Positions 57,949 through 61,900 of a stretch of DNA of 64,000 nucleotides are shown here, piece after piece. Origin of the DNA: Rubidibacter lacunae KORDI 51-2 (GTDB taxonomy: Bacteria > Cyanobacteriota > Cyanobacteriia > Cyanobacteriales > Rubidibacteraceae); contig NZ_ASSJ01000040.1 of the NCBI RefSeq assembly GCF_000473895.1, forward strand, positions 1 through 64,000. The letters run 5' to 3'. Under the pieces are notes generated by a model, which had not been told where the DNA came from, ran no database searches, and was given only the letters and a program-made list of their open reading frames with translations. How positions within the stretch are numbered: position 1 is the first letter of the stretch; the number at the start of each line of letters is the position of its first letter. Both the position numbers and the translations under genes were made by a program.

Positions 57949-58713
57949 ATGGATACGAGTGCTGTTGTTAGTCTCGATCGAGTGGGAGTGGTTTATGACA
58001 ATGGGGTTGTTGCGCTTGAATCAGTCTCACTTCAATTAAAACGAGGAGAGTTTGCAATCGTCCTAGGATCTTCCGGTGCAGGAAAGTCGACATTGCTCCG
58101 AACTCTGAACCACCTTCGACTACCAACTCATGGCAAAGTAACTGTAGAGGGAGTTGGAGAGCTAACCAAGCCCTCTGCACTGCGTCTGCATCGAAAGCGG
58201 ACTGGAATGATTTTCCAACAACATCAGTTGATCGAACGTTATTCAGCGTTGAAAAATGTTTTGATGGGACGACTTGCTTATCACTCCTTTTGGAAAAGCT
58301 TGCTGCCACTGCCTAAGCTCGATCAACTAATTGCCTTAGATTGCTTGAAACGGGTTGGCTTAATTGATAAAGCCTTGACTCCTGTTAAATCTCTCAGTGG
58401 AGGTCAGCAGCAACGCGTTGGTATCGCACGCGCTTTGGCTCAGAAACCACGACTTATGCTTGCAGATGAACCCATTGCCAGCCTCGATCCTACTAGTGCT
58501 CATCAAGTACTGGCCTTGCTACGAGATATTTGCAAAAGCGAAGGTATTGCTGCCTTATTGAGCTTGCACCAATTGGAATTTGCCAAACAGTATGGCGATC
58601 GCATCATTGGATTAGCCAATGGTCGCGTTATTTTTGATGGCTCTCCTTCAGCACTACATCATCAACATCTCGATGAGATTTATACCAAGCGGTCCTTGGA
58701 ACCTGTGATGTAA
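57949..58713 (+). CDS. ptxA: Phosphite/phosphonate ABC importer, ATP-binding protein
   Basis: 254 residues. Walker A GSSGAGKST near residue 38, Q-loop MIFQQHQLIERYSALKNVLMGRL, ABC signature LSGGQQQRV, Walker B LMLADEP and the D-loop SLDP. The whole has PhnC/PtxA length and the long post-Q-loop helix RLAYHSFWKSLLPLPKLD that is typical of this family. Given PtxD in the same cluster, phosphite is the likely substrate; phosphonate or hypophosphite importers are close relatives. AT-richer than its chromosomal surroundings. Weak ribosome site. Two HIP1 octamers lie in the cluster (58595 and 61164). Confidence 0.93.
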   Translation: MDTSAVVSLDRVGVVYDNGVVALESVSLQLKRGEFAIVLGSSGAGKSTLLRTLNHLRLPTHGKVTVEGVGELTKPSALRLHRKRTGMIFQQHQLIERYSALKNVLMGRLAYHSFWKSLLPLPKLDQLIALDCLKRVGLIDKALTPVKSLSGGQQQRVGIARALAQKPRLMLADEPIASLDPTSAHQVLALLRDICKSEGIAALLSLHQLEFAKQYGDRIIGLANGRVIFDGSPSALHHQHLDEIYTKRSLEPVM

Positions 58714-58798
58714 GTTCAGCGTCCAAATTTGCACAACTTGGTTTCCGACAACAGTTTCTGTTTGCTCAACAATTACAATTTTGAAGGAATGAAGTGAA

Positions 58799-59737
58799 AT
58801 GGTCGGTATCAGTTTTAAGCACAGAATTATCGGCTTCTGTTTGTCAGGACTTATTGGGCTGGTAGGTTGCAACAACCCAAGCTCAACGACAAATCAGGGA
58901 GAAAAAACGGCTGGTCAAAATACAGCGGCCTTAGAATCAGTGGGCGACAACCCAAAGAAACTAATAGTTGCCCTACTGCCCGACGAAAATGCTGCCAGCA
59001 TCATTCAAGATAATGAAGGACTGGTATATCACCTAGAAACAGAGCTCGGAAAAGATATCGAACTTGTTGTAACCACTGACTACTCGTCTATGATTGAAGC
59101 TGCGAGCAATGGGCGATTGGATCTCGCTTATTTCGGTCCTCTCTCCTATGTGTTGGCGAAAACAAAGAGCGATATTGAGCCATTCGCTGCTCGCCTGAAA
59201 GGTGGTTCTACCACTTACACCTCCATCGTTATCGGTAATGCCGAAGCAGGTATTGATGAGTTCGAGGATATCAAAGGAACCACAGTAGCCTTTGGAGATC
59301 CGGCCTCAACGTCTAGCCGTCTGTTTCCCGAACTAACTTTAGCTGAAGCAGGACTTATATCTGGGGAAGATTACGAAGCTGTGTTCTTGGGTGCTCATGA
59401 TGCTGTGGCACTAGCCGTACAGAACGGAAACGCTCAGGCAGGGGGGCTCAGTCGTCCGATCTTTGATTCACTTGTTGAAAAAGGTAGTGTCGATCCTACC
59501 AAAGTCACGATTATTGCTGAATCGGCTCCCATTCCTCAGTACCCTTGGACTATGCGAACAGACTTGTCATCAGAACTCAAGGAGAATATTCGCGTCACCT
59601 TCTTAGAGTTGAATGATGAATCTGTACTGAAACCATTCAAAGCTGACGGCTTTGCGGAGGTGAGCGATACAGACTACGACGGTATCCGCCAAGCAGGGAC
59701 AACCCTAGGATTAGACCTCGGGGAATTTGTCCAATAA
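58799..59737 (+). CDS. ptxB: Phosphite/phosphonate-binding lipoprotein of the ABC importer
   Basis: 312 residues. The N-terminus is a lipoprotein signal with lipobox LVGC (Cys24), so it is membrane-anchored on the outside of the plasma membrane. The PhnD/PtxB type 2 binding fold shows [63 protein letters not shown] and [20 protein letters not shown], where the STSSRLFP loop holds the oxyanion. The GDPASTSS segment is the phosphorus-oxyanion signature. Starts 85 nt after ptxA. Confidence 0.93.
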
Positions 59738-60083
59738 ATCACTCGCTCTCAAAGATATTCAACAGTAGGGCACTTGAATTAATTTGCTCAAGGCTGAAGA
59801 TCGACCCGGCAGCCTGGGCATTTCAGCTGCCGGTGCTTCACACTCCAGAGATTTTTCGAGGTACCCAATATTTTAATCCTTAACTCGAGGTAGAGTTAAT
59901 TCCCTGGGAGAAGACAATTGACTACAGGCTTCTAGCTTCGCTTTGGCAGTAGGCGGTAAGCAAAAGAAAACTCGAGAAGTTCCAGAATATATTTCTGTAA
60001 GATAACTAGCTCTACTTCAGAAGCAGCTGATTCTTTTATCATCTTGTGACTGTCCATTTGACCTTATGCAAGAGGTTTTGGTA
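59738..60083. other. 346-nt gap inside the ptx cluster, holds a repeat
   Basis: No gene. It carries the third ~100-bp repeat copy (59767-59866), then ~200 nt of AT-rich sequence up to the ptxC start. It interrupts what is otherwise a tight operon. Confidence 0.6.
59767..59866. repeat. ~100-bp repeat family, copy 3, between ptxB and ptxC
   Basis: Begins AGGGCACTTGAATTAATTTGCTC and ends GAGATTTTTCGAGGTACCC, with imperfect inverted ends and the shared GGCATTTCAGCTGCCGGTGC interior. It lies 30 nt past the ptxB stop, so it is transcribed if the cluster is one operon. Confidence 0.75.
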
Positions 60084-60893
60084 ATGAATGAAAACCAGGC
60101 AAGCTACACCGCGATCCTTCGCCAGCAACGACGACAATGGAACCAGCAGCTAATTCGCGTGTTGTTAATACTGGGAGTTGTTTTTATCAGTTTTGCAGTT
60201 GTGGAGCTGTTTGATATTGAACGCATGGCAGACGGCATTCCAGCAATTGTAACACTACTTTCCGAAATGCTTCCCCCAGACTTCAGCCGCTTTCCAAATT
60301 GGATAGAACCTATCGTTGATACTCTGGCTATGAGTGTGGCTGGGACTGCCATTGCTGTGGCACTGTCGCTGCCCTTGTGTCTTTTGGCAGCTCGAAATAC
60401 AACACCACATCCAATCATTTTTCATGTTGCTCGTACCGTTTTGAATGTGACTCGAGCTATTCCCGAACTCATCCTGGGAATGATTTTGGTGGCCGCGGTT
60501 GGCTTCGGTAAACTGCCGGGTACATTGGCTCTTGGTCTTCACTCTGTGGGGATGCTTGGGAAGTTTTTTGCTGAGTCAATTGAACTTTGTAATCCTGCCC
60601 CCGTAGAAGCAGCTCGTGCAGCAGGTTCTACTGAACCACAAGTCATCGTTCATAGCATTTTGCCACAGGTTTTCCCTCAGATGGCTGACGTCACCTTTTA
60701 TCGGTGGGAATATAACTTCCGTGCCTCAATGGTTCTGGGCGCAGTGGGTGCCGGTGGAATTGGCCTAGAAATAATCAGTGCCTTGCGGATCTTAAAATAT
60801 CAACAGGTGTCGGCACTTCTCATCGTTGTTCTTGTGATGGTTACAATTGTTGATGGATTGAGCAACTATCTTCGCAAGGGTTTTGTGAAATGA
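60084..60893 (+). CDS. ptxC: Phosphite/phosphonate ABC importer, permease
   Basis: 269 residues from ATG 60084, preceded by AGAGG at 8 nt; an upstream in-frame ATG (60066) lacks such a site. About six membrane helices, with [49 protein letters not shown] and the [25 protein letters not shown] coupling EAA-loop, as in PhnE/PtxC. It ends KGFVK with a TGA overlapping the ptxD ATG by 4 nt (ATGA), so the two are coupled. Confidence 0.92.
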
Positions 60894-61900
60894 GTGATGT
60901 TCCCAATCGTCCCAAAGTCGTACTCACACATTGGGTCCATAACGAGGTCATACAACTTCTTAGTGAAACTTGTACTGTAGTTGCCAACACAACTCGTGAA
61001 GCCTTATCTCGCGATGAAATTTGCCGACGTTCGCGAGATGCAGACGGGCTGATGGTTTTCATGCCCGATTCGATTGACAAGACTTTCCTCGATAGTTGTC
61101 CTCAATTGAAGGTCATTGCTGGAGCCTTACGAGGCTATGACAATTTTGATGTAGAGTCCTGTAGCGATCGCCAGATTTGGTTCACGATAGTTCCCGATCT
61201 ATTAGCAGCCCCAACGGCTGAACTAACTATTGGACTTCTAATTGGTTTAGCCCGCCGGCTTTTGGAAGGTGATGCATTGATTCGTCATGGTAAATTTCCT
61301 GGTTGGCGTCCTATTCTCTATGGTAAGGGGTTGACAAATAAAACCCTTGGTGTCGTCGGCATGGGAAAACTAGGCCGCTCCCTAGCCGAGCGACTGCAAG
61401 GTTTCCAAATGCATTTACTGTATGCAGACCCTGTTCCTCTCTCTGCCGAATTGGAAAAAATGTGGCAGATTGAAGCTGCTCCTTTAGCAGAACTTTTAGA
61501 GAGCAGTGATTATGTCGTGTTAATGGTGCCACTACAGCCGGACACATTCCATTTAATTAATCGCGAGAGGATTGCTTGTATGAAACCCGGTAGCATTTTG
61601 ATTAATCCTTGCCGAGGTTCTGTGGTTGATGAAAAGGCAGTTGCTGACGCGTTAGCCAGCGGCCACTTGGCTGGCTACGCTGCAGATGTCTTTGAAATGG
61701 AAGATTGGACTCGCTGCGATCGACCATCAAGCATTGAACCTCGATTGCTACAGAATCAGAATCAAACATTCTTCACACCTCATTTAGGTTCTGCTGTTGA
61801 AGAAATACGATTTGAAATTGCTATGGAAGCAGCTATGAATCTACTGCAGGCGTTACGAGGAGATATCCCGCGAGGGGCTGTAAATCAAATCAATAAATAA
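60890..61900 (+). CDS. ptxD: Phosphite dehydrogenase
   Basis: 336 residues, the same length as the Pseudomonas stutzeri enzyme. It oxidises phosphite to phosphate with NAD. Diagnostic PtxD segments: [24 protein letters not shown] (Trp/Tyr contacts), [10 protein letters not shown] (catalytic Arg242), [19 protein letters not shown] (Glu271) and [14 protein letters not shown] (His298, Ser and Arg contacts). The substrate-contact Lys76 of P. stutzeri is Arg81 here (LRGYDNFD for LKGFDNFD). The NAD-specificity pair Glu-Ala is Asp-Pro, so NAD preference is expected. It starts by 4-nt overlap with ptxC. Confidence 0.93.

Follow-up and report, generated by a model that had tools for sequence, protein, structure and literature searches.

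The ptxABCD cluster of Rubidibacter lacunae and its kinship with marine cyanobacterial phosphite operons

Genes, flanking elements and functional residues

Rubidibacter lacunae KORDI 51-2 is a marine, unicellular cyanobacterium that comes from Chuuk lagoon and has a genome of 4,153,658 bases on 99 contigs (PMC3910548). Within the window, the 64-kb stretch of this genome analysed here, four genes (ptxABCD) occupy positions 57949-61900 of the + strand, all with open reading frames (Table 1). The 4-nt overlap of ptxC and ptxD, noted in the original prediction, is seen in the coordinates of the frames; ptxC has a second in-frame ATG at 60084.

Table 1. Features of the ptxABCD region, in positions of the 64-kb window
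Feature	Position	Strand	Evidence and remarks
Dispersed repeat, second copy, upstream of the IS relics	56137-56236	+	77% identical to 59767-59866
IS256-family transposase relic, upstream flank	56394-56637	-	71-72% DNA matches in genome; homologous ORF PF00872, E 1.2e-16
IS1-like transposase relic, upstream flank	56693-57059	-	PF03400 E 0.0011, below cut-off; 74% DNA match elsewhere in genome
Candidate Pho box, 110 nt before ptxA	57839-57868	+	three 8-mers, 11-nt spacing: ATTAATCC gat CTTAACCA tta GCAAACCC
ptxA	57949-58713	+	ABC transporter ATPase, PhnC family; TIGR02315 294.6 bits vs cut-off 266.1
ptxB	58799-59737	+	phosphite-binding lipoprotein; closest PDB PtxB 5lv1, E 1.4e-121
Dispersed repeat, ~100 nt, ptxB-ptxC spacer	59767-59866	+	77% identical to 56137-56236
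ptxC	60066-60893	+	ABC permease, PhnE family; TIGR01097 289.7 bits vs cut-off 216.7
ptxD	60890-61900	+	NAD-dependent phosphite dehydrogenase; PDB 6ih2 E 1.5e-142; Arg76, Lys155

The cluster brings together an ATPase, a binding protein and a permease of the PhnCDE kind with a phosphite dehydrogenase. The original prediction had recognized it as ptxABCD, and the profiles and structures agree. The ATPase and permease exceed their family cut-offs, and PtxB scores above that of the phosphate/phosphite/phosphonate binding protein profile (221 vs 112). Among solved structures, three PtxB proteins head the matches to PtxB (E 1e-121, 8e-107 and 2e-88), and phosphite dehydrogenases head those to PtxD, with glyoxylate reductases far behind (E 5e-60); the corresponding bit scores for PtxD are 478 and 207, a gap of about 270. 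The PtxD-specific blocks quoted earlier are present. Judged by sequence scores and by its position inside trees made of PtxDs only, the protein is nearer to PtxD than to glyoxylate or glycerate dehydrogenases, so that the outcome named as damaging to the prediction, a place among other hydroxyacid dehydrogenases, did not occur. By its sequence, then, R. lacunae PtxABCD is a genuine and ordinary example of a known system.

Functional residues are in place in both the enzyme and the binding protein. PtxD, with positions in Pseudomonas stutzeri numbering as read off a Stutzerimonas protein closely related to the studied one, has M53, D79, W134, Y139 and R301, positions of relevance in the enzyme's structures. 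The catalytic triad Arg237/Glu266/His292 (PMC10127272) is also complete (R237, E266, H292). For PtxB we used the Trichodesmium numbering of PMC5700983, where the phosphite contacts, the capping Tyr208 and its partner Asp22 are listed. The R. lacunae protein retains Y55, Y100, S130, T131, S132, H160, the cap Y208 and the partner D22, and its Leu20 matches that of the phosphite-specific Trichodesmium PtxB. In the genome's three remaining PhnD-like proteins, position 208 holds Asp and not the capping tyrosine, and position 22 differs as well.

Mobile elements adjoin and interrupt the cluster. Of the two transposase relics that had been proposed upstream, the IS256 relic is borne out by a homologous copy that matches Transposase_mut. 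The IS1 assignment draws support from a Pfam match and a genomic DNA match, the former below the Pfam cut-off. The dispersed repeat in the ptxB-ptxC spacer has 30 matches in the R. lacunae genome, itself included, spread over many contigs. Because its ends are near-perfect inverted repeats (consensus GGGCACCTCGA; GGGCACnTCGA / TCGAGGTnCCC), it looks like a MITE-like element. Its presence in the spacer suggests that the operon arrived long enough ago for an element already resident in this genome to insert into it, and a mobile repeat at this place could weaken co-transcription of ptxB and ptxC. The spacer folds mildly more stably than its shuffles (z -1.9) and contains no terminator pattern that we could find, and we therefore do not claim a regulatory RNA there; an Rfam search of 56000-64000 returned nothing.

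Kinship and acquisition of the operon

Our trees are all of the quick kind, without bootstraps. In the tree of concatenated PtxABCD, R. lacunae groups with the metagenome-assembled Cyanothece sp. SIO2G6 (support 96), and the pair is sister to the picocyanobacteria Prochlorococcus and Synechococcus (100). PtxB alone gives the same association with picocyanobacteria (100), and for this protein a tree that unites the cyanobacterial sequences other than those of picocyanobacteria is rejected (p-AU 0.00015); the PtxA (96) and PtxC (92) trees agree. The PtxD quick tree placed picocyanobacteria elsewhere. Together with the identities (PtxB and PtxC nearest picocyanobacteria, PtxD nearest Okeania and Crocosphaera), this had suggested a mosaic operon with transporter and PtxD from different sources. 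We reject that idea: holding the picocyanobacterial PtxDs with R. lacunae and SIO2G6 improves the tree by 16 likelihood units, so the split is best put down to the tree search and to long branches. Each of the four single-gene trees can be reconciled with the four-gene tree.

The composition of the cluster is as distinctive as its kinship. Across the 34 long ORFs of the window, from which we drew codon statistics, the four ptx genes rank lowest in GC3 (37-43%); the next is 48.9% and most lie at 60-75%, which bears out the earlier remark that the cluster is AT-richer than its neighbours. PtxD was found in none of eight other genomes of the family, two of which have distant paralogues (33-35%); of 386 cyanobacterial genomes sampled, 11 have it, R. 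lacunae included. With PtxD absent from the family genomes examined and GC3 so low, acquisition by transfer, as originally predicted, is well supported by sequence, and the trees point the same way.

The donor branch, as far as trees of all four genes can tell, is cyanobacterial. The prediction had argued for such a donor, or for long residence, from HIP1 octamers at 58595 and 61164. Both positions are correct, but two sites in the 3.95 kb of the cluster fall below the window average (90 in 64 kb), and it is the trees, not these sites, that identify the donor branch. We could not define an empty insertion site from relatives, since all of them have the homoserine kinase gene but without the other flanking genes next to it.

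Could the operon instead have been inherited vertically within cyanobacteria and lost many times, with no transfer into Rubidibacter at all? The exclusively cyanobacterial nearest relatives of the operon would fit. Yet its GC3 is far under that of the host, the eight other family members are without PtxD, its closest relatives occur in picocyanobacteria and one Cyanothece MAG and not in the Halothece family, and IS relics lie beside the operon; we regard vertical descent as quite improbable.

We also looked for possible vehicles. Viral contigs gave no match to the patterns used. Among plasmids, 702 records carry a PtxD relative, the best about 63% identical and none close to that of R. lacunae. 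As an observation in its own right, 576 of these records are from Klebsiella, with Acinetobacter also frequent, and most are predicted to be conjugative; phosphite dehydrogenase genes thus appear to be widespread on enterobacterial plasmids. A further case concerns a Synechococcus-like genome (G291), whose ptx cluster (locus L114, 3298-6800) has GC3 of 34-42% in a locus of 52% GC and long branches; the other Synechococcus cluster measured is unlike it. AT-richness relative to the surroundings and branch length suggest that the G291 cluster is a separate recent import.

Regulation, function and competing explanations

The original prediction had pointed out that a ptxE-type LysR regulator is missing. 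There is indeed none in the 64-kb window, and the best LysR match that the R. lacunae genome offers reaches just 31% identity. Three Nostocales, two Nitrospirota and three Pseudomonas-group loci carry a relative of the Nodularia LysR gene next to ptxD, whereas none was found beside ptxD in the marine cyanobacterial loci searched, an absence that applies to the DNA examined, some loci being short. The absence of ptxE is therefore probably inherited with the branch and, contrary to what had been proposed, is no sign of transfer.

Control by phosphate starvation seems likelier. We searched upstream for CTTAACCT-like boxes, three in tandem and set 3 nt apart, using a profile built from published cyanobacterial Pho boxes (PMC1906773). 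The candidate before R. lacunae ptxA is weak (shuffle p = 0.02 over 200 nt upstream), and the reverse strand scores slightly higher. In picocyanobacteria, five of six ptxA upstream regions have better candidates, with 0 of 200 shuffles as good, and these strong candidates together with the weak one in R. lacunae are what favours phosphate-starvation control. The R. lacunae box itself stays a suggestion, given the reverse-strand score and the lack of any PhoB-family regulator in the genome at the curated PhoB cut-off. Elsewhere in the genome, strong Pho-box candidates, likewise better than the one before ptxA, precede two other PhnCDE-type operons (L121:6784-6813 and L120:5252-5281, on contigs C4 and C17).

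We are confident that ptxABCD works as an operon for phosphite assimilation, transferred from the marine cyanobacterial branch and probably induced by phosphate starvation without PtxE. This reading builds on what was observed: which genes are present, the families they belong to, their phylogeny and composition, and the residues for binding and catalysis; from these we infer expression, transport, enzyme activity, regulation and growth on phosphite, also as sole P source. In the periplasm, phosphite would be captured by the PtxB lipoprotein; ATP-driven transport across the inner membrane would fall to PtxC and PtxA, and PtxD would convert phosphite and NAD+ to phosphate and NADH. The operon would have entered the Rubidibacter lineage from the same marine cyanobacterial source as the picocyanobacterial ptx clusters, and its induction by phosphate starvation would probably run through SphS/SphR (PhoR/PhoB) and not through PtxE.

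One alternative accepts the four intact genes but supposes that they are largely silent or poorly expressed, with the IS relics and the ptxB-ptxC repeat marking an import in decay. The closeness of those elements would agree with this, as would the low GC3 if taken to mean little adjustment to the host. However, all four frames are open, the listed binding residues and the catalytic triad have all been kept, the spacer is free of a detected terminator pattern, and SIO2G6, the closest relative, has an even longer ptxB-ptxC spacer. Decay is thus an unlikely explanation, although it has somewhat better prospects than vertical descent. A different substrate, be it methylphosphonate, hypophosphite or some further reduced phosphorus compound, or else another 2-hydroxyacid, strikes us as the most improbable alternative. 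Proteins of the PtxB type do bind hypophosphite and methylphosphonate weakly (PMC5700983), the NCBIfam models for the transporter are named 'phosphonate', and the top NCBIfam model for PtxD is a glyoxylate reductase, below cut-off. Against this, PtxB has the tyrosine cap, which keeps larger ligands out, its Leu20 is as in the phosphite-specific protein, PtxD scores far higher against phosphite dehydrogenase than against glyoxylate reductase, and the genome has separate cap-less PhnD-like transporters as well as C-P lyase (PMC3910548).

Phosphite assimilation would extend what has been described for this host. R. lacunae has a phn C-P lyase cluster, grows on phosphonates and has two further transporter sets 'not shown' (PMC3910548). 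That genome paper makes no mention of phosphite, and in the literature searched we found no report of phosphite use by R. lacunae. A culturable tropical lagoon cyanobacterium and known phosphonate grower thus joins the candidates for phosphite use.

Residue 76 and comparison with known systems

Phosphite dehydrogenases, established or putative, have been described as conserving Lys76 (PMC12676663). Residue 76 of R. lacunae PtxD is Arg and so departs from the Lys of the studied enzyme, a point that counts somewhat against a functional operon. Across 90 PtxDs, 67 have Lys and 23 have Arg at this position, the Arg-bearers all being cyanobacterial, R. lacunae included. Residue 155 follows: it is Lys, Gln or Arg in 22 of the 23 Arg76 proteins compared with three of the 67 with Lys76. 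With columns 76 and 155 masked, a tree that holds the Arg76 proteins in one clade has a better fit than the unconstrained quick tree and passes the AU test (p-AU 0.77). Since the Arg76 PtxDs are related, the association of the two residues is close to one event. We found no mention of Arg76 variation in the literature searched. A separate observation is a PtxD with Arg76 but Ser155 in an uncultured Scytonema MAG (L048, 6001-6985), in whose locus no ptxABC was found.

Arg at this position is probably compatible with function. The Crocosphaera relatives of the assayed Ct-PtxD have Arg76 too, as does the PtxD of a sampled genome (G163) that appears to be, and that we take to be, Prochlorococcus MIT9301. 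Phosphite supports growth of the latter organism, according to work cited in PMC3610870. For the same reason we do not treat Lys76 as defining PtxD, and the Arg76/Lys155 pattern corrects the idea of an invariant lysine. Enzyme engineers have mutated this residue pair for cofactor use, and an engineered residue 155 was modelled in contact with K76 (PMC9418148); the R. lacunae pair is a natural variant of it. Lys155 of Ct-PtxD (Cyanothece/Crocosphaera ATCC 51142) was noted as unusual and possibly tied to NAD+ binding (PMC10473253). We entertain, at somewhat under even confidence, a broader idea: that cyanobacterial PtxDs outside the ptxE-bearing Nostocales share a remodelled NAD+ pyrophosphate clamp (Arg76 with Lys, Gln or Arg155), a second gripping solution perhaps tuned to salt, cofactor or low phosphite, which was fixed about once and spread with the ptxE-less operon.

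The new points are modest: the sister place to picocyanobacterial operons, a ptxE-less layout with Pho-box candidates, and Arg76/Lys155 in cyanobacterial PtxD. The Pho-box candidate, the Arg at residue 76 and the spacer repeat did not figure in the original prediction. With one MAG, the R. lacunae operon is the closest non-picocyanobacterial relative found of the Prochlorococcus clusters, and it therefore bears on where ocean picocyanobacteria got the phosphite trait.

The nearest relative for all four genes, Cyanothece SIO2G6 (68, 71, 82 and 69% identity), shares with R. lacunae the 4-nt ptxC/ptxD overlap and Arg76/Lys155, but has ptx GC3 of 56-63%, other flanking genes and the longer spacer. 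The ptxABCD clusters of Prochlorococcus MIT9301 and marine Synechococcus agree with that of R. lacunae in gene order, in Arg76, in having no adjacent ptxE that we found, in Pho-box candidates upstream of ptxA, the one of R. lacunae being weak, and in belonging to the same four-gene clade. PtxB is 64-74% identical between them and R. lacunae, whereas PtxD is only 49-55% identical; MIT9301 and one Synechococcus have Ile20 in PtxB where R. lacunae has Leu20. Their ptxB-ptxC spacer measures about 50-65 bp between matches, against 328 bp with the repeat in R. lacunae. Pseudomonas stutzeri WM88 and Nodularia spumigena (ptxABCDE) have the same transporter and NAD phosphite dehydrogenase in the same order, but with a LysR gene, ptxE, adjoining ptxD and with Lys76, both of which R. 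lacunae lacks. Ct-PtxD of ATCC 51142, like the R. lacunae protein, has Lys155 instead of Ala; it was purified and assayed (PMC10473253), which demonstrates activity for a PtxD from a marine cyanobacterium, whereas R. lacunae PtxD is known from its sequence.
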